DNA of 64,000 nt, taken from assembly GCA_030789695.1 (NCBI GenBank), contig CM061139.1, positions 200,109,641-200,173,640 on the forward strand, in the 5' to 3' direction. The notes below the pieces were generated by a model. That model saw only the letters and a list, made by a program, of their open reading frames with translations. It ran no database searches and was not told the origin of the DNA. This document shows, in pieces, positions 20,757 to 62,990 of this stretch. The translations under genes and the position numbers were made by a program. Position 1 is the first letter of the stretch. Each line of letters begins with the position of its first letter. This stretch comes from Scilla litardierei. Taxonomy: Eukaryota; Streptophyta; Magnoliopsida; Asparagales; Asparagaceae.

Positions 20757-21184
20757 GGGAAGAAGGTGAACGTCGTCCAAACCCCATTGCGCATAATCAA
20801 GTGAGGGAGCGGGCCAATCAACCGTGACTCCTCCCCCGGGCAAGCTATGCGCGCCCACCGTTATCTTCCCTGCGTTTTCGTATTCCTCCCCGAATGTACT
20901 GATCACTCCATATTTTACACCTTTTTTCCGTGGATTTGCATGCCATTTAGATCGCCCAAATCATGTTTTTCACGATATATCGACGATATTGCGATGCTTT
21001 TCACGATTTGTTGTTTTTGTCGCATTTCAGGTGATTTGGCGCGATTTGGAGTGATCTCGAGACGCGCTTACTCTACACGGCCACCGACGACCTCCCCGAG
21101 GGATATTTTACTGTTGGAGAGGAGCGGAAGAAGAATGGATGTCGCAGGAGCGACGAGGAGGCGAAAACAATCAGATTGGGCATT

Positions 21185-21580
21185 TTTGTGTCCCACTCGG
21201 CCGAGTGGAGGAGCCACTCGGCCGACCAGCGAGACACTGCTCGGCCGACCCGTTCAGACACGTTTTCCATGTGTACTCGGCCGAGCGACGGAGACCACAT
21301 CGGCCGAGTGACGATACCACGTCCGCCCAAGTGGCGCCCAGACGAAGGCCCTCAAAAATATCGAAGTTACTGTTTTTCGGCCACCTGAGCTTCAGAAGAC
21401 CCACTCGGCCGAGTGGTAAACCGCGTCCGCCCGAGTGCAGTAAAGCCATCGGCCGAGTGACGACAACTCACTCGGCCGAGCCGCCTCCGAACCGAAGACC
21501 CTTGAAGCCCCCGACTTACTGGAAAATGACAGGGTTTTCACTCGGCCGAGCGACTTTTGTCACTCGGCCGAGTGCGATGC
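21185..21580 (+). promoter_or_regulatory. ACTCGGCCGAGT palindrome array in U3
   Basis: About ten full or near-full copies of the 14-bp palindrome CACTCGGCCGAGTG occur in 400 bp, spaced irregularly by roughly 10-80 bp. The array ends about 80 bp before the TATTTAAG box. The same block is present at about 31,318-31,712 in the 3' LTR. Position and palindromic form suggest binding by a dimeric factor, which is inference. Confidence 0.6.
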
Positions 21581-21657
21581 GCTGCCTGTAGCGAAATTTG
21601 CGGAAAACAGGCTGTGCAGGGGCGTTTTGGTCAGGATTTTTGGACGATTTTTGGGGC

Positions 21658-21665
21658 TATTTAAG
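21658..21665 (+). promoter_or_regulatory. TATA-like box of the Athila-like LTR
   Basis: TATTTAAG followed by CCC. The same octamer is present in the 3' LTR (31,789-31,796) and, on the minus strand, in the related LTR at 62,031-62,038, in each case just downstream of the palindromes. Confidence 0.55.
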
Positions 21666-22056
21666 CCCTGTTTTTACCCTAGTTTTAGGAGCCATCTCTT
21701 AGATTTTTTGCAGCTTTTTGAGATTACTTTTTAGCTTTATTATTTGTGATTGGAGAAGAGAAAAACTTGGATTTTTGTTGGATTAATTGAAGAACTACTT
21801 TGGTTTGCATCTCTCTTCCCCAAAAACTCTATTTTTATTGTTTATATCATTGTTGTGATGAATTCCATTGTCTATTTCATTGATTATTTTTGTGCTATTG
21901 TTATGATTTGTGAGTAGTCTCCACGTCTTGGGGCGTGGGGATGAACCCTACAAGCCCAATTTCGTATTTGTGATGAATTGGTAGAAATTGTGCTAGAATC
22001 AATAATTAGAGATTAGATTGGGATCGAATTACTACGGATAGCTAGGTATTCATATC

Positions 22057-22356
22057 AATCGGGATTTGCAAGAGATTGGATCCCAATTTGATAGGAAGCC
22101 CTAGAAATCCGAATTGGGTTGGGGTCGGATTTTCGAAGTATCGGTTTGCAAGAGATTGGACCGATACTAGGATCTCCGGTTGCAATTCCGTGCCGATACC
22201 CGTTTGCAAGAGATTGGACGGGTAGGAACTATCCTAATTTAGATTGTGGACCGAGTTTGCAAGAGATTGGGCTCGGTGCGCAATTGGACGATGATGTTGA
22301 CCCTAATGCTAGCTTTCCTAGGCTAGGGTTTGCAAGAGATTGGACCCGACCCTAGG
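22057..22356 (+). repeat. Five hairpins with a constant 14-nt loop
   Basis: The 14-mer TTGCAAGAGATTGG occurs at 22,066, 22,146, 22,204, 22,257 and 22,330. Each copy is bounded by a different pair of complementary arms: GGGAT/ATCCC, GTATCGGT/ACCGATAC, TACCCGT/ACGGGTA, ACCGAG/CTCGGT (plus a G-T closing pair), and GGGT/ACCC. The same set lies at about 32,188-32,487 in the 3' LTR. The pattern sits between the TATA box and the LTR end, so it is in the transcribed leader. Confidence 0.8.
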
Positions 22357-22722
22357 ATAGCTATAGACCGGCAACAGCGCGAGAGCGTGAGCTTGGTTCC
22401 ACATTTAGTTGCAACTAGTTCATCCAAATTCTCATTCTAGCAATTTTAATACCGACGAACCACATTTATGAAATACGGTGAGTAGCGGGGATTCCCCATT
22501 CCCTAGACGTTCTTTATTTGATTTGATATTTCACACATTTGTCTGACGATTGTGACAGGATCGCCCAAGGCAACTCTCTCTATTCTTGAATAGCCAGGTT
22601 GATTAGGAGCAAGCACGGTCATTCGTCATCCCTGTGTTCGATACCCGCTCGCCGCTATACCGTGCGCTTGCGGTAAAACTACAACCGTTCTTTGGGTGTA
22701 CGTCCCGGAACGATCAAGTTTT

Positions 22723-22740
22723 TGGCGCCGTTGCCGGGGA
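22723..22740 (+). other. Primer binding site (Athila type, tRNA-Asp)
   Basis: TGGCGCCGTTGCCGGGGA, six bases after the 5' LTR, is the standard Athila primer binding site. Confidence 0.92.
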
Positions 22741-22884
22741 GGCGATTGCGTTTGATTCTTTTTCACCCTAGCTATTTCTTTCTTTTACTTTTATTTTTTT
22801 ATTACCATTATTATTTCCCCTACTATTCTTACCTAACCCTTCCACGGTACTAATCATCTCTTTGAAACTCTGTTTTCCCTGTGC

Positions 22885-25656
22885 ATGTACACGAGATCTA
22901 CGGCGGACCCCGAAGCCTTATTATTCGATCCCGAGATCGAACGTACCGCGCGGAGACTTAGAGCGGAAAGGAGACAATATCCGGAAGGGCGGTTTATGAC
23001 CAACCCGGAAACTCCCGAAGAATTGGCGGCGAGGATGGCGAGAATAATTTCTATTCGCAATAGGCTTCGGCATAAGACCTCTTCTACTACGTCATCCATT
23101 GCCGTGCCGGAGTTGGCGGCCGACAAGAACTTCGAGCTAAAGACGGGATTGGTGGTTTTGATGCAACAAGACCCATTTCATGGGAACGCTCATGAGAACC
23201 CCCATTACCACATCCAATCATTCTTGTCGAAGTGCGCCACATTCCAAATGCCGGGGGTCCCCATCGATGCCATCAGACTGCGCATCTTCCCCTTCACGCT
23301 AAAGGACAAAGCACTCTATTGGCTGAGGACGCAAGCTGACGGAGTTTTCACCTCTTGGGACGGGTTGGCGGATGCATTCATTGACAAATTTTATCCACCA
23401 TCCAAGACGGTGAAGATCCGGAGCGCTCTCATGTCCTTCAAGCAAGGACCACATGAGACGCTCTATGAAGCTTGGGAGCGATTTAAGGATTTGCAGCACC
23501 AATGCCCGCACCACAGTATAGAGGATTGGGAGCTAGTTCATAGCTTCTACAACGGTCTCCAACCGGGGACCAAACAAATTATTGATGCCGCGGCGAATGG
23601 TGCAATCTTGTCAAAGACTCCCGAGGAAGCTACGGCCCTAATTGAGGAGATGGCCTCAAATAACCAACAATGGGGCGATGAGCGAGGACACTCCACATCC
23701 TCCTTAAAGCCAACTAGCATCTACGAGGCAAAGGCCGTAGCGGAGCTCACGAGCAAATTCGATTCTCTCCACAAGGTGGTGGAGAGATTGGAGAAATTTA
23801 TCACGGAGCCCCAAGGAAGCCCATCCACCTCCGCACCGACCAACCAAATGTGTGATTGGCAAAACCAATCTCAAGTCATGTACTCGGGAGGAGAGCAAGG
23901 AGAAGGATCCTTGGAGCAAGTACAATATGTTGCGGGGAACCAAGGGTATTGGTCCAATCCGGCCGCAAGAAATCATCCGGGATTCTCCTACGCCAACAAT
24001 GAAGGAGCCTTGAACCCGCCACAACCACCGCCTCAACAAGCTCGACCACCACCACCCCAACAACAAAACTATCCACCGAGGGGGCCTACTCAACAAAACT
24101 TTCAACCAAGGCAACAAGTTCCACCATATAGGCCTCCCGGATTCAACCAAGGGTGGAGGAATCAAAATCAAAACCCTCCACAAACTCCACAACGATCCGA
24201 CTTCGAAACTAGAGTGGAGGCGTTCATGGTCGAGCAAAATAAGGTGAATGCTACTTTGAAGGCGGGGCAAGAATCTCTTAATACCGTAGTGGCTCAAATA
24301 TCGGAGCAATTGGCGTTGCTCAATCGGAACACTCAAAGATTGCCGGCGCAACCGGAGCAAAACCCACGGGGCAACACGGGCCACATCAATGCCGTAGTTG
24401 CCGTTACTACTAGAGGCGGGAAGGACACCACCCCCGCTATGATTCCTACCGAGGAGGCCGTGGAGGAAAGCTTGGAGCCGGTTGAGCCGGTAGTTGAGAT
24501 TGAAAAGGAGAAGGAGCCACAAGACAAGGAGAAATCTAGGGCGGAGCGATTAATTGAGGAGAGGCGCTTCATGCCACCGGTCCCATTCCCCCAAAGACTA
24601 GCGAAAGCGAAAATGGAGAAAAGGCTAGCGAAATTCCTCGAGTATCTAAGAGGAGTTAGCCTAAATATTCCCTTCCTTGACGCCATCATCGAGATCCCCA
24701 CATATGCCAAATTCTTGAAGGACTTGATTTCGGGGAGAAAGAGGAAGGAGAAGATCATGCTAGCCGAGGAGGGCTCTTGGTTCACCAAGAGAGAAAAGGA
24801 GCCGGCAAAATTTAAAGATCCGGGGAGTTTTCGGATTCCTTGCACTTTGGGCGGCGTGCCTCTTCAAAAGGCGTTGGTCGATCTTGGGGCTAGTGTGAGT
24901 CTCATGCCCCTCTCCATGTTCTTAAAGCTTAACACCGGGACAAAGTTGAAACCCACCGACATGCGCATTCAATTAGCCGATGGCCGGATAACAAGGCCGG
25001 TGGGGATTGCCGAAGACATCCCACTTCAAGTCCCGGGTGGAATATGCTTGCCATGTGACTTCGTCATCATGGACGTTAAGGAAGAGGGAGACACCTCATT
25101 GATACTTGGACGCCCATTCCTCGCCACCGCCGGAGTCATCGTCGACGTGCGCGAAGGTACCTTAACCTTAAACGTCGGAAACATCGAGGTGGAGCTCCAC
25201 ATTCCTAAGGCAATGAAGCACATGCCTTACCACGAGGAGCTTGATTACATGGACCTCCTCGATGAGGTGATAGAGGAGACGATTCCTCACTCAATTGGCG
25301 CCCTTTTTGATGAAGAATTTGAAGAAGGCCCGGATTTAGGCCATGAAGACAATAATGATGATTCCCCCGACTTCTCCGCTGATGAAGATGAAGGCGACGT
25401 TGATGTCGCAAGGATTCGAGAGCTCTGCAAGCTCTCGAAATTAAAGTCTCCAAAGAAAGCTCCGCAGGTACGGAAATCGGCATCGCCGGTTAAGCCGTTG
25501 ACCCGGGCAAATGCTAGCTTGGGGGAGCCTCCCCCCAACACTATTCGAGACAAGAGACCTCCGAGGGAGAACGCTACGCCGCCACGTCCAAATCCAAGCG
25601 CGCTCCCCGGGAAGTTTGACGGGTGCATCTCATATGCACCAAACATCCCGCATTGA
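22885..25656 (+). CDS. Athila-type gag-protease polyprotein, 923 aa
   Basis: It encodes the capsid and protease of a Ty3/gypsy Athila element. The ATG at 22,885 follows the primer binding site by 145 bp and opens an unbroken frame. Residues ~80-270 are the Retrotrans_gag core (FPFTLKDKALYWLRT, FIDKFYPP, ETLYEAWERFKDLQHQCP). The zinc knuckle expected near residue 315 is lost: only one Cys (MCDWQNQS) remains. Residues ~370-435 are Pro/Gln-rich. The protease has LVDLGASVSLMPLSMF, with the catalytic Asp at residue 666, and ILGRPFLATAG as the flap and C-terminal motif. After it comes an acidic tail and a basic Pro-rich end where reverse transcriptase would normally begin, so the polymerase has been excised. 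The frame is open, so it is probably still coding. Confidence 0.9.
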   Translation: MYTRSTADPEALLFDPEIERTARRLRAERRQYPEGRFMTNPETPEELAARMARIISIRNRLRHKTSSTTSSIAVPELAADKNFELKTGLVVLMQQDPFHGNAHENPHYHIQSFLSKCATFQMPGVPIDAIRLRIFPFTLKDKALYWLRTQADGVFTSWDGLADAFIDKFYPPSKTVKIRSALMSFKQGPHETLYEAWERFKDLQHQCPHHSIEDWELVHSFYNGLQPGTKQIIDAAANGAILSKTPEEATALIEEMASNNQQWGDERGHSTSSLKPTSIYEAKAVAELTSKFDSLHKVVERLEKFITEPQGSPSTSAPTNQMCDWQNQSQVMYSGGEQGEGSLEQVQYVAGNQGYWSNPAARNHPGFSYANNEGALNPPQPPPQQARPPPPQQQNYPPRGPTQQNFQPRQQVPPYRPPGFNQGWRNQNQNPPQTPQRSDFETRVEAFMVEQNKVNATLKAGQESLNTVVAQISEQLALLNRNTQRLPAQPEQNPRGNTGHINAVVAVTTRGGKDTTPAMIPTEEAVEESLEPVEPVVEIEKEKEPQDKEKSRAERLIEERRFMPPVPFPQRLAKAKMEKRLAKFLEYLRGVSLNIPFLDAIIEIPTYAKFLKDLISGRKRKEKIMLAEEGSWFTKREKEPAKFKDPGSFRIPCTLGGVPLQKALVDLGASVSLMPLSMFLKLNTGTKLKPTDMRIQLADGRITRPVGIAEDIPLQVPGGICLPCDFVIMDVKEEGDTSLILGRPFLATAGVIVDVREGTLTLNVGNIEVELHIPKAMKHMPYHEELDYMDLLDEVIEETIPHSIGALFDEEFEEGPDLGHEDNNDDSPDFSADEDEGDVDVARIRELCKLSKLKSPKKAPQVRKSASPVKPLTRANASLGEPPPNTIRDKRPPRENATPPRPNPSALPGKFDGCISYAPNIPH

Positions 25657-25983
25657 TTGAAAATTATAGGGGGTCGAGCTCACGACCTAAAACGAGCGCT
25701 TGTCGGGAGGCAACCCGACGGTTTTTGCTTTATTTTTACTTTTTCTTTATTTTCGTTTTAGAGATTTTTAGTGTTTTGAGTCATCCGACCAAAAATTTTG
25801 TGATAACGGGTCCTATTTTTCTTGACAGGAGAGGAGATAGGTAGATCCATCATGAGGAGGATGAACGAGACGACGAGGAGCGCCCCAAGAAGGCGTTCGA
25901 CGCTTAGGAGGAGCATGAAATCGACTGGAGGAAGAAAGACGGAGTTTAGAGCCCAAACGAAGACAAACAGCAGAATACAAGGC
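25657..25983 (+). other. Spacer after gag-protease
   Basis: It contains the phrase GGTCGAGCTCACGACCTAAA and GGGAGGCAACCCGACG, which in full-length Athila elements lies downstream of the integrase. Its place right after protease marks the join left by loss of pol. There is no gene. Confidence 0.5.
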
Positions 25984-26330
25984 TCACTCGGCCGAGTATA
26001 CTAGTCACTCGGCCGAGTCCAGAAGTTCGTCCGGCCGAGCCGCTCACGAACGAGGGAAGTCTGCTGTACCCAACTCTCTGTCTATTTTCCTCATTTCATT
26101 AGAACTGCTACTCGGCCGAGTCTACATTTTCACTCGGCCGAGTAAAACGGATACCCTCCTAGGGCGAGTCATGCCGAGTAGCTTGAGTCACTCGGCCGAA
26201 TGGACTTACTCCACTCGGCCGAGGCTGGCAAAGCCACTCGGCCGAAGCGATATCGGGGAGAAATTTTTATTTGCCTCGCTCGGCCGAGTGAGAACGTCAC
26301 TCGGTCGAGTCGTAACTTTTTTATATATAA
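25984..26330 (+). promoter_or_regulatory. Internal palindrome array and TATA box upstream of ORF2
   Basis: About ten copies of ACTCGGCCGAGT or close variants fill 25,984-26,310, the same motif as in the LTR U3. They are followed within 11 bp by TTATATATAA (26,321-26,330) and a GC-rich leader. The layout repeats that of the LTR promoter and lies about 550 bp before the ORF2 ATG. A pyrimidine-rich tract ending ATGCGCAG at 26,698 could be a splice acceptor in the leader. Promoter function is inferred from layout only. Confidence 0.55.
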
Positions 26331-26876
26331 GCGGCGAGGGGGGCGCGGAATTCGAAAACGCAAATCCCCAATTCTCGCCCGCGCCCCTTCAGCTCCCACG
26401 CCCGATTCCCCCCTCGCTCGACCCTCACTCGCCCGACCGCCGCTGCCCCGCCGCCGCTCGGCCCGCCACCGCCGGCCGAGCCCGCCGACGCCTCGCCCAA
26501 GTCGCCGCCGGCGGCGCACCGCCTGGTCACCTCCGGTTCGCTTGTTTTCACCATTTTCTCCTCTTTTTGCGTAGTTTTTGAGGATCCGTGTATTAATCGA
26601 ACCCCTAACCCGAATCAATTCCCATATCTATCTGTTATACCCCTATTGCTCCATACATTTTGATTATTACTCGCTGATATCGTTTTTCCATGCGCAGGTT
26701 GCTTTTTGGAGTTTAGGGGAGCTCAGGGGAGCTTCTACGGGCTGCTCAGGACTACGTGGAGGCGCGGACTTCGCACGCTTCCACTGCTTAGCACTCGCGG
26801 CGTGTTTGGGTATACTCTTTCCATTCTTTGTGCACACGTCGCACTTTTCACTTTTCGGCACGCGCTCGGGGCCGAT

Positions 26877-28952
26877 ATGCCGCCCCGGACACGGCCGCGG
26901 TCGAAGAGAGCTTCCGCCAAGCGGAAGCGGTCGGATGATGCCGGCCCCTCCCACGAGTTGGAGGACTCTCCTCCACCGTCCCCCACACACCCCGCACACC
27001 CAGCACAGCCTGCAGGCCCCGCACACCCCGCACAGCCTGCAGTGCACCCACAGCCCGCACAGCCTCTCCCTGCCGATCCACAGCCACCACCACCGGCTCC
27101 ACTGGTCGGGCCGCTCGGGATTACGTTCCGAGACGACGCACACCGCGCCGTCTTCGAGCGTATCTCCCAGCGCTCGATCGTACCCTCCAGGTTTGCACAC
27201 CTCGCTGACCTAGGACGCCTGGGGGTACTTGAGGGGATGCTCACATTGTACGACAACGTGGGCTGGCGAGATTTTTTCCAGGTGTCGGCGGATACTTTTA
27301 CCCGCCCGACACTTGAGGTTTTGAGTTCGATCGCCCGGACCGATGAGGGATGCTCATTTAGGTTCATGGATCGAGAGTGCCAGGTCACTCTCGATATGAT
27401 GAGAGCGTTCTTCTCATGGCCCGCAGTCCCCGGAGCCGATCGCGGTTACGGCCCTACCCACATCCCACCACCTTCTTTCGACGCCGGTGCCTTCTGGGCC
27501 CGGATCACAGGCTACCACGCCGCCTTTGACCCTAGTAGGGCCAAGGCCTCGGCCATTGTCCACCCCTGCCTACGTATTGCCCAGCGCCTTATGGCGACCA
27601 CCTTTTTGGCCAGATATGAGCCGGGCACGATGTCTACGCCAGAGCTCTACATGCTCTATGCGATGACACGTCCCAGAGCTCTATCTATGGATGGAGATGA
27701 GCTTGTCCCCGCCGTCGTGATCGACATTGCGGCTTGGTTTTTAGACCGTATCATTGTGTCGGTGGGCGCTCGCTCACCGATATGCTGCGGCGGTCTGATC
27801 ACCCTACTTACCATGATGACCGGCGAGGACCTACCTGACGACCTGCGACGCGTTCCGGGCCCCACTTCCTTGTCGATAGACGTTATGGCCCGGATGAAGA
27901 TGCTGCGTCCGCATGGTGAGCGTCACTGGGTCTGGTTGCACGGCCCTTTCGGTGCCGACTACATGATTCTCCCGAGCCCAGCTCGGACCCAGATTGCACC
28001 GGCCCACGTTGACTGGCTCCCAGCGATGGATGTCCTCATCCCCGCTGCGTACGTGCTCGAGGCCGAGGAGGCCGAGCAGGCCCACGCTGCCCACGCTGCC
28101 CAGGCTGCTCCCGCAGACCCTGCTGCACACCCTGCCGAGCCTGCTGCCGACCCCGTCGACCCTGTGGCCCCTCAGCCTGTTCCTGACGTTTCCACTGCTC
28201 CTGACACTTCTGTCCCCACCTCTGTCAGTGTCGAGAGTACTTTTGCTGAGCCCACTTCCACCACTGTCACCACTTCCGAGGCTGTCCCCACCACTCCCGC
28301 TGCCACCTCTGGCCCTCTGTCCGTGGAGCCTCTTTGCTCCGCACTCCCCGAGCGCCCGCCGACCTTTGTCGAGAGTGGAGCGCCCTCGTTTGCCGCGGTC
28401 GTGGAGACCATGGCTAGCATGATCTCCGCTGGGATTGCGCCTTTTGGTCCACACAGTTCCGCCCCAGCGGTAGAGTCCTCTGTCTCCACAGCCGCCGTAT
28501 TCTCCGAGAGCGTCGTGGCGTCTGTCCACACTTCTGGGCCACTGACCTCTCTTGCCGCCTCGTTGCCACTTTTGCACGCTTCCTTTGCTGCCGCTGCCTC
28601 TACTTCTCACCAGCCGGTGTCCCGGCCTCACACTGAGGCCAGGCCCACATTTGCTGGCGCGGCACCTTTTGTCCCCTTCCCTGCTAAGCCCGTTACATAC
28701 TCCACTCGCGTACGCCAGCCCCGCCCTGCGCAGCCTAGACCGGTGCGTCCCTCTGCACCACCCCCGCCCGACACTGTACTGCAGAGCATACGTGCTCTTG
28801 AGTTGGCGGTGAGCGGTCTTAGAGGTGACCTTAGGACCCTGTCCTCCACCGTCTCTACGATGGCTGGACGCTTTGCCCTGATCCCTCAGATCCACTACTG
28901 CCTGACACAGATCTTAGAGCGTCTTCCGCGCGTACCCCCACCCACCCAGTAG
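26877..28952 (+). CDS. ORF2 of the Athila-like element, putative plant transposon protein, 691 aa
   Basis: The protein occupies the place after pol where Athila elements carry an extra ORF. I start it at ATG 26,877 (MPPRTRPRSKR) because upstream residues have no ATG near a good context. Residues 1-25 are Arg/Lys-rich and could be a nuclear signal. Residues ~35-80 are Pro/His/Ala repeats. Residues ~85-340 are a globular core (FERISQRSIVPSRFAHLADL, GWRDFFQVSADTFTRPTLEV, FRFMDRECQVTLDMMRAFF). This resembles the ATHILA ORF-1 / putative plant transposon protein family, whose function is unknown. The rest is Ala/Pro/Ser/Thr-rich, with a heptad-like C-terminal helix (LQSIRALELAVSGLRGDLRT). I see no signal peptide or membrane segment, so an envelope role is not supported. 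Confidence 0.75.
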   Translation: MPPRTRPRSKRASAKRKRSDDAGPSHELEDSPPPSPTHPAHPAQPAGPAHPAQPAVHPQPAQPLPADPQPPPPAPLVGPLGITFRDDAHRAVFERISQRSIVPSRFAHLADLGRLGVLEGMLTLYDNVGWRDFFQVSADTFTRPTLEVLSSIARTDEGCSFRFMDRECQVTLDMMRAFFSWPAVPGADRGYGPTHIPPPSFDAGAFWARITGYHAAFDPSRAKASAIVHPCLRIAQRLMATTFLARYEPGTMSTPELYMLYAMTRPRALSMDGDELVPAVVIDIAAWFLDRIIVSVGARSPICCGGLITLLTMMTGEDLPDDLRRVPGPTSLSIDVMARMKMLRPHGERHWVWLHGPFGADYMILPSPARTQIAPAHVDWLPAMDVLIPAAYVLEAEEAEQAHAAHAAQAAPADPAAHPAEPAADPVDPVAPQPVPDVSTAPDTSVPTSVSVESTFAEPTSTTVTTSEAVPTTPAATSGPLSVEPLCSALPERPPTFVESGAPSFAAVVETMASMISAGIAPFGPHSSAPAVESSVSTAAVFSESVVASVHTSGPLTSLAASLPLLHASFAAAASTSHQPVSRPHTEARPTFAGAAPFVPFPAKPVTYSTRVRQPRPAQPRPVRPSAPPPPDTVLQSIRALELAVSGLRGDLRTLSSTVSTMAGRFALIPQIHYCLTQILERLPRVPPPTQ

Positions 28953-31029
28953 GTGCCCGCACACACTTCCACACACACTAGACCTGCTTCCACTTCCACG
29001 CCCACCCCAGCTCAGCAGCCTACACCACCACCACCTCCTCCGCCTCAGGACGGAGACGGCGCAGCACCACCTTCCTAGGCACCCTTGATGCCATCGATTC
29101 CTTTTGCCGTTGTGCTGCCCGTTTCTGCGGGGTCCTGATGCCTTTTTGTCCACCCCCTCCCCTCACTTTTTGTGATTCTCATTTGCCGTATCTTTATATA
29201 TCTTTTTTGGGAGAGAGGGAGAGCTTTTGGTGACCCATTTATACTCGTATCACTCATATCTGTGCATGCATCATATCCGCATCATATTTTCATTTCTTTA
29301 TTTTTCGTTTTATTATTTTTTTTTTCTTTCCATCATGCATGCATCCTCACTTGCCCCTCTCATTACTTGTCTCTCTGTGTGCCACACTTTGCACATTGAG
29401 GACACTGTGCAGTTTAGCTTGGGGGAGTGAGTTCTCACGTTCTTTTTCGATTTGCCACCTTTATTTTTAGTTTTTCACACCGTTTTTTTTCACTTTCGCA
29501 CTCATTTTTCTTTATTTTTCTTTTATTTTGCCATGCATCACGTTTTTCTTATTTCTCTGTGCGCCGCATTGCATAGTTTTATTTTTCTTATCTTTATTTC
29601 TTTCATTTTTCATCTCATGCTAGAGATGAATTTTCTGTGATGATGTCTACGTGGAGTTAGCTTATTCTATATGCATGCTATATTTGTCATGTCTTAGATT
29701 TTATTTCTGATATCATATGATATGACTTGCTTTGCATCTAGAATAGTAACCCACACTTTCTCCGCATGAAAATGGATGAAGTTTTATTATTAACTGAGCC
29801 TGAATATTCATATGTATGCTATCACAGAAAACACACCAAGATTCACGCATTGAATGCCTATATCTGGAGTACCGATTTCTTTTCCTATATCACTTCTATA
29901 TGCATGAATTGTACACTTCACTTCGGGATGATTGAATGATGTTAGCTATGATATATCTGGATTAGTTAGCTTTTTTGTGATCGAAACTGAGTAGATTAGA
30001 TTACCCTGCTGAAGTTGTCGTGCATGTCTTATAGAGTGAACCGAGAGTTATATATATTTCTTTCTCCACAAATCTTGAACATCATTTCTCTACTTTTAAA
30101 AATCATTGGTGGATCTCCCCTTAGTGATTCTATTTTATGGCATTTCCCCCGCTATTAATTCCTAGCTCCAAATCCCTTCTTCTAAAAAAAATAAAATAAA
30201 TATATAAAGAGAGAAAAACATTCTTGTATATCATTATCTCTCTCTGAGTTGGGATCATTGTGTATATATTGCTTATAAAAAAAAGAAAAAAAAAGGAGAA
30301 AAGAGGAAAAATCCTCAATAAAGGATCCCATCTCACTTTCTTTCTTTCTTCTTTATCTTCTTTGCTTTTGGAGCTATATAAAAATGGGGATGTAAATATT
30401 TTTGTGCCACCACGCTTATAGATAAGCTTGGGGGAGGGGACCCATTGATGTGTGAGAGTGTGACTACTTGACATTGCACGACAACCTAGGCTAAGTAATA
30501 TTCTATACTCGGTGAGATTGTTTCTAGCTTCACGAAATCCAGAAATCTAATCCTAGCGTTCATTTCATGAAATCCAAACTTTTCTATTCTCTCTATTCTA
30601 TAGTGTGATACTCTTATACTCCAGATAGAAAGCGTTCAATTGAAAAGTGTGTGATCTGTGATTTGTATACCGCTTTAAATGATTCAGGCAATGTTAATTT
30701 TAAAATCATTCCGTTCTTCATGATTATATCATTGTTCGTGGGTTTTCTATTTCTATTTGCACTATTATACTATGATATCAAAATAAGATTCTTTGACATG
30801 TATTTCTCATTCGGTGCATGCTATAAGAGTAAGTGAAACCCACGTCCTGAGAAAATGATCTAGCACCCTACCTCTTCGCTTCTTTCTTTCGTCTTTATTT
30901 TCATTTGGTTTTCATTCTTCTTCGTTTTTCCTTTTTTTCGTTTTTTCGCCGTTTTGTTTTCCGAATCCACCGGGTTCGCCTTTTACTTATCTTCCTCGAG
31001 GACGAGTAAGAGGCAAGCTTGGGGGATTT
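28953..31029 (+). other. 3' untranslated region of the Athila-like element
   Basis: No coding region. It holds CACATTGAGGACACTGTGC followed by AGCTTGGGGGAG (about 29,417), an Athila signature, and a second AAGCTTGGGGGAGG near 30,423. The true polypurine tract, AAGCTTGGGGGATTT, is at 31,015-31,029 next to the 3' LTR. The rest is T-rich and A-rich low-complexity DNA. Confidence 0.75.
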
Positions 31030-32847
31030 TGATCACTCCATATTTTACACCTTTTTTCCGTGGATTTGCATGCCATTTAGATCGCCCAAATCATGTTTTC
31101 CACGATATATCGACGATATTGCGATGCTTTTCACGATTTGTTGTTTTTGTCGCATTTCAGGTGATTTGGCGCGATTTGGAGTGATCTCGAGACGCGCTTA
31201 CTCTACACGGCCACCGACGACCTCCCCGAGGGATATTTTACTGTTGGAGAGGAGCGGAAGAAGAATGGATGTCGCAGGAGCGACGAGGAGGCGAAAACAA
31301 TTAGATTGGGCATTTTTTGTGTCCCACTCGGCCGAGTGGAGGAGCCACTCGGCCGACCAGCGAGACACTGCTCGGCCGACCCGTTCAGACACGTTTTCCA
31401 TGTGTACTCGGCCGAGCGACGGAGACCACATCGGCCGAGTGACGATACCACGTCCGCCCGAGTGGCGCCCAGACGAAGGCCCTCAAAAATATCGAAGTTA
31501 CTGTTTTTCGGCCACCTGAGCTTCAGAAGACCCACTCGGCCGAGTGGTAAACCGCGTCCGCCCGAGTGCAGTAAAGCCATCGGCCGAGTGACGACAACTC
31601 ACTCGGCCGAGCCGCCTCCGAACCGAAGACCCTTGAAGCCCCCTACTTACTGGAAAATAACAGGGTTTTCACTCGGCCGAGCGACTTTTGTCACTCGGCC
31701 GAGTGCGATGCGCTGCCTGTAGCGAAATTTGCGGAAAACAGGCTGTGCAGGGGCGTTTTGGTCAGGATTTTTGGACGATTTTTGGGGCTATTTAAGCCCT
31801 GTTTTTACCCTAGTTTTAGGAGCCATCTCTTAGATTTTTTGCAGCTTTTTGAGATTACTTTTTAGCTTTATTATTTGTGATTGGAGAAGAGAAAAACTTG
31901 GATTTTTGTTGGATTAATTGAAGAACTACTTTGGTTTGCATCTCTCTTCCCCAAAAACTCTATTTTTATTGTTTATATCATTGTTGTGATGAATTCCATT
32001 GTCTATTTCATTGATTATTTTTGTGCTATTGCTATGATTTGTGAGTAGTCTCCACGTCTTGGGGCGTGGGGATGAACCCTACAAGCCCAATTTCGTATTT
32101 GTGATGAATTGGTAGAAATTGTGCTAGAATCAATAATTAGAGATTAGATTGGGATCGAATTACTACGGATAGCTAGGTATTCATATCAATCGGGATTTGC
32201 AAGAGATTGGATCCCAATTTGATAGGAAGCCCTAGAAATCCGAATTGGGTTGGGGTCGGATTTTCGAAGTATCGGTTTGCAAGAGATTGGACCGATACTA
32301 GGATCTCCGGTTGCAATTCCGTGCCGATACCCGTTTGCAAGAGATTGGACGGGTAGGAACTATCCTAATTTAGATTGTGGACCGAGTTTGCAAGAGATTG
32401 TGCTCGGTGCGCAATTGGACGATGATGTTGACCCTAATGCTAGCTTTCCTAGGCTAGGGTTTGCAAGAGATTGGACCCGACCCTAGGATAGCTATAGACC
32501 GGCAACAGCGCGAGAGCGTGAGCTTGGTTCCACATTTAGTTGCAACTAGTTCATCCAAATTCTCATTCTAGCAATTTTAATACCGACGAACCACATTTAT
32601 GAAATACGGTGAGTAGCGGGGATTCCCCATTCCCTAGACGTTCTTTATTTGATTTGATATTTCGCACATTTGTCTGACGATTGTGACAGGATCGCCCAAG
32701 GCAACTCTCTCTATTCTTGAATAGCCAGGTTGATTAGGAGCAAGCACGGTCATTCGTCCTCCCTGTGTTCGATACCCGCTCGCCGCTATACCGTGCGCTT
32801 GCGGTAAAACTACAACCGTTCTTTGGGTGTACGTCCCGGAGCGATCA
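31030..32847 (+). repeat. 3' LTR of the Athila-like element
   Basis: TGATCACTCC to GGAGCGATCA, 1818 bp, differing from the 5' LTR by about 11 substitutions or single-base indels (about 0.6%). It carries the same palindrome array, TATA-like box (31,789-31,796) and hairpins. Confidence 0.95.
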
Positions 32848-32939
32848 TGTACCCCTTAGTTTTTAATTTCGAAAATGAAGTGCGAGTCCACACCGACAAC
32901 CATATGTCTCTCGAGATCCGATTCAAGCTTCGCCTTGCC

Positions 32940-34100
32940 AAAACCTCCTGAATCGGCCATAAGGCTGGGGCAACTCCTCCAGCAGGCCGATCGCTCAAAT
33001 CATCCGTAAGACTGGGGGAAACTCCTCCAGCATCATTCAAATCGGCCGTAAGGCTAGGGCAACTCCCCCAGCGGGCCGATTATTCGAATCGGCCGTAAGG
33101 CTGGGGACGACTGCCCAGTGGGCCTATTGTTTAAATCAGCCGTAAGGCTGGGGATGACTTCCCCAGCAGGCCGATCGTTCAAATCGGCCGTAAGGCTAGA
33201 ACAACTCCCCCAGCAGGCCAATCTTTCGAATCGGCCGTAAGGCTGAGGCGACTCCCCCAGCGGGCCGATCGTTCAAATCGGCCGTAAGGCTGGGGGGCGA
33301 CTCCCCAAGCGGGCCGATCGTTTGAATCGGCCGTAAGGCTGGAGGCAACTCCCCCAGCAGGCCGATCTTTCGAATCAGCCGTAAGGCAGGGACGACTCCC
33401 CCAGCAGCCGATTGTTTAAATCAATCGTAAGGCTGGGGGCGACTCCCCCAGCAGGCCGATTGTTCAAAACGGCCGTAAGGTTGGGGCAACTCCTTCAACG
33501 GGCCGATCTTTCGAATCAACCGTAAGGCTGGGAGCAACTCCCTCATCGGGCCGATCATTCAAATCAACCGTAAGGCTGTGGGCAACTCCCTCATTGGGCC
33601 GATCATTCAAATCACCCGCAAGGCTGTGGCAACTCCTCCAGTATGCCGATCATACAATCGGCCCTAAGTCGGGGGTAGATCCCCAGCAAGCTGACCGACC
33701 CGTCGATTGTCAGGCTGGGGGCAACTCCCCTAGCAGATCGACATTACATCGACCGTAAGGCTGGGATAACTCCCCAGCGGACCAATCATTCTATCGACCA
33801 TAAGTTTGAGGGTAACTTTCCCAGCCCGACGACCAGCCCATCGACAGTCAGGCTGGGGCCAACTCTCCCAGCAGGTCGGCAACTCTCCCAGTAGGTCGAC
33901 AACCCGTCGACCGTTAGGCTAGGGGCAACTCTCTCAGCAGGCCGACACCCCGTCGACCGTCAGGCAGGGGACAACCCCCAGCAGGCCGACACCACGTCGA
34001 CCGTCATGCTGGGACAACCCCCAGCATGCCGACAACCAGTTGACCGTCAGGCTGTGGGCAACTCCCCCAGTAGGTCGGTAGCCCGTCGACCAGCAGCTGA
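32940..34100 (+). repeat. ~48-bp tandem array of hairpin units in the Tat element
   Basis: About two dozen degenerate units of roughly 48 bp. A typical unit (33,277-33,318) is ATCGGCC, GTAAG, GCTGGGG, a short loop, CTCCCCAAGC, GGGCCGAT, so nearly the whole monomer folds on itself. From about 33,660 the outer arm changes to GTCGACC with GGTCGAC or GGCCGAC on the other side. Tandem repeats in this 3' region are known for Tat-lineage elements. Confidence 0.85.
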
Positions 34101-60760: not shown

Positions 60761-61340
60761 GCCGCTGCCACCGATTCCAACTCTTGGAACGGCCCGTCTT
60801 GGATCTTGGAGTGGGTCCGCTCTCTTGGCGACCCCGGATGACATTGGGTACCTCACAACCATCGGTGTCACTGATCGCGCCCCGGATACACGTCCCGGAG
60901 CGGCGATTGTAGTTTTACCGCAAGCGCACGGTCAAGTGGCGAGCGGGTATCGAACACGAGGAGGTGGTGTTGGGCTCCAATCTATCCTAGGTTGGTTCGA
61001 CTACGAAGGTATTATTGGTGGGGATGACTATGGTATGATATAATGGAAATGGTGGTGGATGTCGGTGTCGGTGATAAAGAAATCGGTCAAATATCGATAC
61101 AAATACAATATAATAAAAGAGGGAATTTGCCTTGCGGCGATCCTGTCACAATCGTCGGGCAAAGTATGGGATATAAAATCAAATAAAGACGTCTAGGGTT
61201 AGGGAATCCCCACTACGGACCGTCATGCATCATTGTGAATAGTGAATCTCAATATTACTAGACTTGCGTTGAGGTGAACTAGTCGCAACTTAATGGAGAA
61301 CCAAGCTCACGCTCTCGCGCTATTGCCGGTCTATAGCAAA

Positions 61341-61645
61341 CCTAGGTTAGGGCCCAATCTCTTGCAAACCCTAACCTAAGCCACTAGCATGAGGATCGAC
61401 ATCATCGTCCAATCGCTCCTCGAGCCCACTCTCGTGCAAACTCGAGTTACGATCTAGGTTGTGATAGTTCGTATTCGTCCAATCTCTTGCAAACGAATAT
61501 GTGTATAGATTTACAATTAAAAATCCTAGCTTTGGTCCAATCTCTTGCAAACCAAATCTAGAGAAACCCAATTGTAAACCTAAATCGAATATCTAGGCCT
61601 TCCCATCGATTAGAATCCAATCTCTTGCAAATCCCAAATCGATGG
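61341..61645 (-). repeat. Hairpin set with constant loop, second Athila family
   Basis: CCAATCTCTTGCAA, the reverse complement of the loop seen in 22,057-22,356, occurs at 61,354, 61,479, 61,537 and 61,617, plus a degenerate copy near 61,426. The stems are TAGGTTAGGG/CCCTAACCTA, CTCGAG/CTCGAG, TATTCGT/ACGAATA, TTTGGT/ACCAAA and CCATCGATT/AATCGATGG. All differ from the stems of the other LTR except for the loop. Confidence 0.8.
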
Positions 61646-62129
61646 AAATCCCTAGCTATCCGTAGTAAATCAATCACAACCTAACCTCCTAGCAATTCTA
61701 GCAATTTGGAAATTCATTCATCACAAATATGAAATTAGATCCATAGGGTTCATCCACATGCCCTAGAACATCAAATCTACTCAAGCATAGCAACAACGAT
61801 ATAGGAATCAATAAAAACAATTGCTTGCATGTAAAAAGATAGCAAATCAAAGATTCAAATAATAAGAATAGAAATACTTAGCTTTGATGAAGAATTCCAA
61901 TCCAAATACAAGCTTTTTGATCCAAGAGGGGGCCTAGGGCATGGCCTAACCTCTAAAAATAACCCTAATAAAACATCTTGGGAGCTAAGAAAACATAATG
62001 GAGATCTCTTCTAATGGTGGCTACAAACCCCTTAAATACTCCCCCAAAACCCTAGCAAGAAAACCCTAGAAAACCCCTCAAATTCGTGCCCAAAAACAGC
62101 CCAAACCGCAACTTTAAATCTGGGCCCAG

Positions 62130-62690
62130 GCCGCACTCGGCCGAGTGGAATATGTGACCCGGCCGAGTGACACTGACATGCAAATTCCAGCACTGCAGCA
62201 TCAACTTGCAGAAATTCCCCAGATTTCATCCGACCTCCGATTTGCGCGTTCTTGGCGGCGTTGGAACCGTCATGAAGTCTACTATCCATAAAAAATATGA
62301 GAAAAATACTTTGATTGCTGGAATGATAGTAGATTTCAAAAGAGTGAGAGGCTGTCTGAAAATCTGGGCGCTGCATGTCCTCGGCATCACTCGGTCGAGT
62401 GGCAAATGTCACTCGGCCGAGGGGCATTTGGTACTCAGGCGGACGGCTTTCGTCACTCGGCCGAGTCGGGCTTCTGGGGCAGACTGACGGATTACAGTAA
62501 GTTGGACATTTTGGCTTGCCGTCGTCTGGGTGCCACTCGGGCGGACGGAGTCTCCGCACTCGGCCGAGTCGGCGTGCGATGCTCGGCCGAGTGCACGCTG
62601 ATACATCTCTGTTGCATGTCCGATCTGGCCGGCCGAGCGGGGTCTCAATGCTCGGCCGAGTGACTCCTTCACTCGGCCAAGTGGCATGCT
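62130..62690 (-). promoter_or_regulatory. ACTCGGCCGAGT palindrome array, second Athila family
   Basis: About ten palindromes or half-sites, such as CACTCGGCCGAGTG, GTCACTCGGCCGAGTC and TGCTCGGCCGAGTG, upstream (minus strand) of TATTTAAG. Spacing differs from the 20,900 LTR, so motif and position are kept but not the sequence between. Confidence 0.6.
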
Positions 62691-62990
62691 GAAAATGCCC
62701 AATCTTCATCTTTTCGCTCCCCCGTCGCTCCTACGGCGTTCTTTCTTCTTCCACTCCTCTTCCATTGCAGAATAACCCTCAAAAGGGCCATGGTTGACTC
62801 TCCGGAGTGGGTGCAAATCCTCTTGATCTCACAATCGATCAAAATCGCTCCATATATCCTGAAATACGACAAAAAACAAGAAATAGTGAAAAGTATCGCA
62901 ATATTGTCGAATAATCGTGAAAAGCGTGATATGGGCGATCAAAACGGTATGCAAATATGCAGAAAAAAGGTGTAAAATATGGAGTGATCA

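Follow-up and report, generated by a model that had tools for sequence, protein, structure and literature searches.

A hairpin array with a conserved tip and covarying stems in the predicted 5' leader of Athila LTR retrotransposons

Structured leader signals and the Athila locus

Structured signals in the leader are a known kind of feature in LTR elements. Alpha- and Gammaretroviruses carry hairpins with GACG tetraloops, which take part in retroviral packaging according to the accessible text of PMC516450. Among plant elements, BARE2 is a subfamily without a protein of its own that keeps the cis-acting dimerisation and packaging signals of BARE (PMC3735527, in the portion available). Sireviruses harbor repeated motifs with dyad symmetry, the RM boxes, which are conserved palindromes upstream of the TATA box; boxes with the CGG-CCG core are called Sirevirus specific in the available sections of PMC2829016. 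Finally, the related elements Athila, Calypso and Diaspora are characterized by an ATHILA ORF-1, a Gag, long LTRs and a TGGCGCC-type primer binding site (PBS), all of which are common to the element described below. A PBS of the tRNA-Asp type is stated for Diaspora and Calypso in the accessible part of PMC1142308, in which the terms hairpin, stem and secondary structure do not occur and a leader array is not mentioned.

We analysed a window of 64,000 nt from the genome of Scilla litardierei. It contains three Athila LTRs (A, B and C), each of which carries five short hairpins built around the same 14-nt motif. As in the GACG systems, several short tetraloop hairpins are placed in the 5' leader of an LTR-element RNA, here by prediction. 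The Athila tip, however, is a GAGA sequence beside a UG bulge (GAGA, not GACG, in 334 of 345 sampled hairpins). The hairpins come as five near-identical copies at fixed spacing, accompanied by a predicted sixth GAGA hairpin, and they precede the PBS, within the LTR itself. In further contrast to the retroviral packaging hairpins, the Athila Gag is without a CCHC knuckle, and the function of the array is a prediction from sequence. BARE and BARE2 offer a parallel to the pol-less Athila copy in the window, but they belong to the Ty1/copia superfamily, and a hairpin array is not described for them in the accessible text. RM boxes share repetition and dyad symmetry with our hairpins; the latter, in contrast, are found downstream of a TATA-like box, combine a fixed tip with variable stems and have no fixed CGG-CCG core. 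Array, tip and host lineage all appear to be new among structured leader signals. Neither the array nor the 14-mer is described in the open-licence literature covered, including the available text of PMC3601003, PMC5311732, PMC11728184 and PMC7076952.

We also noticed motifs in the Athila U3 that do resemble RM boxes, the palindromes TCGGCCGA, which have the same CGG-CCG core. There are 10 of them in LTR A (21194-21571, equal to LTR positions 295-672), 6 in LTR C and between 1 and 9 in each of ten other LTRs of the genome, in all cases upstream of the TATA-like box.

The Athila element and its hairpin array

The features of the window are as follows.

20900..22716, plus strand: 5' LTR (A) of the Athila element, with TGATC...GATCA ends; target duplication TGTAC at 20895-20899
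21658..21665, plus strand: TATA-like box TATTTAAG, 408 nt upstream of the motif of hairpin 1
22057..22088, plus strand: core of hairpin 1 in LTR A (motif 22066-22079)
22137..22168, plus strand: core of hairpin 2 in LTR A (motif 22146-22159)
22195..22226, plus strand: core of hairpin 3 in LTR A (motif 22204-22217)
22248..22279, plus strand: core of hairpin 4 in LTR A (motif 22257-22270)
22321..22352, plus strand: core of hairpin 5 in LTR A (motif 22330-22343)
about 22366..22399, plus strand: predicted sixth hairpin, GAGA-capped, just after the array (fold prediction and sequence conservation)
22723..22740, plus strand: putative primer binding site TGGCGCCGTTGCCGGGGA, read from the sequence after LTR A
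22837..25653, plus strand: open frame with Gag and aspartic protease domains (Pfam PF03732, PF13650)
26664..28949, plus strand: open frame with ATHILA ORF-1 domain (Pfam PF03078)
31030..32847, plus strand: 3' LTR (B) of the same Athila element; target duplication TGTAC at 32848-32852
32188-32219, 32268-32299, 32326-32357, 32379-32410 (GG to GT) and 32452-32483, plus strand: five hairpin cores of LTR B
60872..62990, minus strand: diverged Athila 3' LTR (C), with a polypurine-like tract immediately upstream; the element extends beyond the window
61608-61639, 61528-61559, 61470-61501, 61417-61448 (CAC-GAGA-GTG) and 61345-61376, minus strand: five hairpin cores of LTR C

LTRs A and B bound a single element (20900-32847); they are 99.3% identical in a self-alignment and flanked by a 5-bp target duplication. 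The element has the ATHILA ORF-1 and retrotransposon Gag domains that mark the Athila lineage (PF03078, E 1e-11; PF03732, E 1e-19), and its PBS is presumably of the tRNA-Asp type. Pfam showed no reverse transcriptase or integrase domain in the plus-strand frames tested, the four longest of 22837-28949. Since its LTRs are nearly identical and the Gag-protease and ATHILA ORF-1 frames are present while a pol domain was not found, this is probably a recent, non-autonomous Athila copy, with degenerate pol remnants conceivable elsewhere in it. The Gag frame contains no CCHC knuckle, and the pattern C..C....H....C is matched by 17 of 67 database relatives. Diverged tandem repeats of more than 100 nt (32950-34091) directly adjoin LTR B.

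The motif TTGCAAGAGATTGG fills all five motif positions listed for LTR A (starting at 22066, 22146, 22204, 22257 and 22330) and recurs in LTR B at 32197, 32277, 32335, 32388 (with one mismatch) and 32461, always on the plus strand. In LTR C, it occurs five times on the minus strand between 61354 and 61630, one copy reading TTGCACGAGAGTGG. The first-pass annotation of this DNA had reported five loop copies per LTR, each enclosed by its own complementary arms, and this holds for all three LTRs. Its description of the arms as perfect or near-perfect is borne out by 32 of 35 paired positions beside the motif in LTR A and 34 of 35 in LTR C; hairpin 5 of LTR A is only near-perfect, with 4 bp followed by an internal loop and renewed pairing.

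It seems safe to dismiss the idea that the array is an artefact of recent duplication, or due to chance. The five units share a motif and must therefore have arisen by duplication at some time. However, their own arms pair, while arms exchanged among the hairpins of a single LTR do not pair like them (mean of 3.55 of 7 positions in A and 4.25 in C); the arms are thus not mutual duplicates, whereas the first-pass annotation had named such duplication as fatal to its proposal. With up to two mismatches, the window holds 15 motif matches, compared with a mean of 0.85 and a maximum of 4 in shuffled sequence. A covariance model scores these 15 copies at 39.7-49.1 bits and the next best site in the window at 11.7. 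Chance is also at odds with the genome counts: the exact 14-mer is present in 84,400 + 83,374 = 167,774 copies in the 3.68-Gb host genome, as opposed to 1 + 4 = 5 copies of its reversed control. The variant TTGCACGAGAGTGG adds 16,292 + 15,837 = 32,129 copies. Together, at five per array, these counts suggest at least about 40,000 LTRs with an array, provided that all copies sit in five-hairpin arrays.

The spacing is conserved as well. Of 110 fetched LTR stretches, 105 have five hairpins spaced by about 80, 58, 53 and 73 nt (within 10 nt per step), and in the first-listed arrays five motifs within three mismatches were found in 30 of 30.

The array is located between the TATA-like box and the PBS, and the transcript start is a prediction. 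Of 13 LTRs examined, 12 have a TATA-like box (TATTTAA or TATATAA) at a distance of 384-408 nt before hairpin 1. Because the array follows this box by about 400 nt, the first-pass annotation is supported in placing it in the genomic RNA's 5' leader; it would begin about 375 nt into the predicted transcript and end before the PBS. The 356-nt array folds far better than shuffled sequence (z = -6.8 for A, -8.0 for C), and the hairpins are retained when the whole leader is folded.

Two further observations concern the array region. The stretch containing the sixth hairpin (22362-22400) is identical between LTRs A and C at 37 of 39 positions, so that here the sequence itself is conserved (22366-22399), unlike the conservation of pairing alone. 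In addition, one open frame without ATG crosses the array in both families (22095-22355, 86 codons; 61371-61592 on the minus strand, 73 codons); the translated array, used as a protein query, found no protein relatives.

A search of 20900-23000 against Rfam gave three matches with E 2.2-4.5, far below the gathering scores, and none of them was a ribozyme (including the hammerheads of retrozymes). In viral contigs, the exact 14-mer occurred in at least 120 stretches. These look like chance matches because none among the matches listed has more than five consecutive arm pairs. Two motifs 38-68 nt apart were not found in viral contigs, nor was the conserved block downstream of the array. The 11-mer GCAAGAGATTG was present twice, 64-80 nt apart, in ten viral contigs, all of them without the exact 14-mer. 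Gag as query yielded nothing in viral or genome contigs, and a query built from ten aligned plant Gag-Pol proteins yielded nothing confirmed in viral contigs. Plant-type Gag-Pol contigs did turn up in five bacterial records (Geminicoccus, Solirubrobacter, Modestobacter and two Blastococcus; L121-L125), likely as plant contamination. The best score of the covariance model on these contigs was 11.6 bits (E 0.93), and in L125 the 1.1 kb preceding the PBS is free of such an array.

Pairing and covariation in stems and tip

The alignment of LTRs A and C revealed an uneven distribution of changes. Identity is 68/70 in the motif, 49/70 in the seven-pair stems and 126/178 in the remainder. The tip is therefore 97% identical between the two LTR families and the stems only 70%; the latter vary like spacers, yet they pair. 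What had been counted as ten distinct stems in the first-pass annotation are in fact five orthologous hairpins in two families, whose stems differ at 21 of 70 sites. Six stem pairs are changed on both sides and still pair, compared with 1.3-1.9 expected under independent change, and between 27 and 231 of 100,000 simulations reached this number. RNAalifold on the three LTRs predicted 126 pairs, 14 of them changed on both sides.

We used two LTR samples to follow these changes along a tree. Sample 1 comprised 69 arrays: A, B and C, 30 from the first-listed sites on contig 1 (of 32 clusters listed) and 36 of 40 that were selected by the CAC-GAGA-GUG variant. Four arrays were left out, three with five motifs at altered spacing and one (L214) with no such cluster. 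The tree was built from the spacer columns of the 69 arrays. Sample 2 comprised 39 of 40 arrays from eight contigs, chosen for one hairpin with C15/U20 (L264 was left out). In sample 1, the 55 true column pairs showed 11 double changes that fall on the same branch and keep the pair, and the 140 swapped pairs showed none (p 4e-7); sample 2 gave 8 such changes in 39 core pairs and 2 in 140 swapped pairs (p 9e-5). Selection on base pairing in the array stems, as claimed from the start, is thus supported, since these changes concentrate in true partners in two LTR samples.

Counts of kept and broken pairs were less uniform. On the internal branches of sample 1, they were 26/3 for core pairs, which were picked after the data were seen, and 28/11 for all pairs, as compared with 63/52 for swapped pairs (p = 0.0005 and 0.09, respectively). 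The corresponding values in sample 2 were 12/3 for core pairs and 42/33 for swapped pairs (p = 0.15). Internal branches also differed from terminal ones, with 26/3 versus 50/55 for core pairs (p 4e-5) and 28/11 versus 53/61 for all pairs (p 0.009) in sample 1, and 12/3 versus 41/43 for core pairs (p 0.046) in sample 2; for the seven outer plus two inner pairs of sample 2, the counts were 12/10 versus 43/47 (p 0.64). We do not rely on this contrast because swapped pairs show a weaker one of the same sign (63/52 versus 81/128 in sample 1, 42/33 versus 82/141 in sample 2). Mutual information with APC in 33 arrays was set aside as a test, as it is dominated by phylogeny; its top 60 holds 2 expected pairs, both of them the inner-stem pair.

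The 14-nt loop had been taken to be open. According to RNAfold, it probably contains a 3-bp CAA/UUG stem closed by a GAGA tetraloop, beneath which there are a UG bulge and a U.G pair. The supposedly degenerate copy in LTR C, TTGCACGAGAGTGG, reads CAC-GAGA-GUG, so that both sides of one inner pair are changed; the motif is indeed kept, as had been stated, but this copy turns out to be a compensatory double change. In a sample of 345 hairpins, in which 36 of the arrays had been selected for this very variant, the inner pair 15/20 is A-U in 261, C-G in 77, U.G in 4, G.U in 2 and A.C in 1, with C-G in hairpins 4 and 5. Genome-wide, the 32,129 double variants contrast with 247 copies of single C15/U20, the one single change counted. 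GAGA is found in 334 and UUG in 340 of the 345 hairpins. The predicted probability of the inner stem, which speaks against it, is only about 0.6; for the C-G copy of LTR C, RNAfold prefers a wobble-rich register and the value falls to 0.23. We think that the tetraloop stem is the likelier form.

Whether pairing acts in RNA or in single-stranded DNA had been left open; the evidence leans towards sense-strand RNA. The array folds better in sense than in antisense (-137.9 versus -115.4 kcal/mol), and G.U wobbles outnumber A.C in sample 1 (17:3 on internal and 35:28 on terminal branches). In sample 2, the ratio was 7:3 on internal branches, which is not significant, and 29:13 on terminal ones, where swapped pairs gave 68:40. 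As swapped pairs also carry some G.U excess, this polarity is suggestive only.

Possible functions of the array

An invariant tip, stems that change freely while paired and copies at fixed spacing are what would be expected of a multivalent protein-binding RNA. Our tentative reading, which stands a good chance of being right but which we would not call probable, is that the array is such an element in the Athila leader and most likely serves Gag binding for packaging. It would act in cis, as a structured element of the R-U5 leader in the genomic RNA of Athila. The tip would be the recognised part, probably 5'-UUG-CAA-GAGA-UUG-G, with its 3-bp stem and GNRA tetraloop beside the UG bulge. The outer stem would need only to pair, so its sequence could drift through compensatory change. 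Five copies at fixed spacing would create a multivalent docking site. The likeliest ligand would be the element's own Gag, and the array would single out full-length RNA to be packaged, either in cis or in trans. Since the element at 20900-32847 has a Gag while a reverse transcriptase was not detected, it would need signals to which proteins from outside also respond.

The absence of a CCHC knuckle from this Gag cuts both ways. It deprives such signals of the reader that is customary in retroviruses. Ty1 Gag, without homology to retroviral Gag, nevertheless binds and dimerises RNA (accessible text of PMC8396678). A bolder version, possible but on the doubtful side, is that in a plant Ty3/gypsy lineage whose Gag lost its zinc knuckle, RNA is identified and packaged by means of a GNRA-tetraloop operator in five to six copies at fixed spacing. 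In that case the RNA hairpins, acting as a multivalent array, would have taken over specificity from the knuckle, and both tens of thousands of copies and non-autonomous derivatives would use them.

The same structural evidence would fit a host or element protein that binds the array for nuclear export of unspliced RNA, for stability or for translation (CTE- or IRES-like), because identical tips on variable stems suit any multivalent RNA-binding site. Athila is noted for long LTR leaders, and splicing around its env-like genes is predicted (PMC1142308 and PMC2829016, in the text available); both point in this direction, but nothing ties the tip specifically to an export or translation factor and an Rfam family match is absent; we consider this role somewhat unlikely. 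Dimer linkage, in which the self-complementary UUGCAA of the tip would make kissing contacts between two genomic RNAs, gains from a predicted loop-loop duplex of about -5.9 kcal/mol and from the role of palindromic and tetraloop hairpins in retroviral dimer linkage (PMC516450, accessible part). However, UUGCAC is found in hairpin 4 of 23 of 33 arrays (the part of sample 1 that includes A, B and C) and in hairpin 5 of 7 of 33. This change abolishes the palindrome while the inner pair is kept, which makes kissing via UUGCAA improbable.

The strong local folding of the array would also be compatible with small-RNA precursors that serve host silencing or its evasion, as proposed for palindromic LTR regions of maize Sireviruses in the available text of PMC10760457. 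Given that the core stems are short and that silencing leaves both the invariant tip on changing stems and the fixed spacing unexplained, we regard this as very unlikely. We give just as little credence to a signal at the DNA level, such as repeated transcription-factor sites or cruciforms. The 14-mer is a direct repeat, LTRs do carry such sites and its reverse complement contains CCAAT. Binding sites, however, need no complementary arms, the array lies downstream of the TATA-like box, the CAC/GUG variant is common although it destroys CCAAT, and the better fold of the sense strand points away from DNA.

To our knowledge, little is known about how plant LTR retrotransposons choose RNA for copying. 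The Athila array is a compact candidate signal with internal controls: it comes in five copies, has natural compensatory variants, and the exact copies in one genome number about 200,000. Should it prove to be a recognition signal, it would account for the mobilisation of non-autonomous Athila copies and provide a handle to detect or trap the Athila ribonucleoprotein. In that case, the array copies would also lend themselves to the study of RNA evolution as a natural data set, with selection shaping their changes during the active life of the element and decay following insertion.
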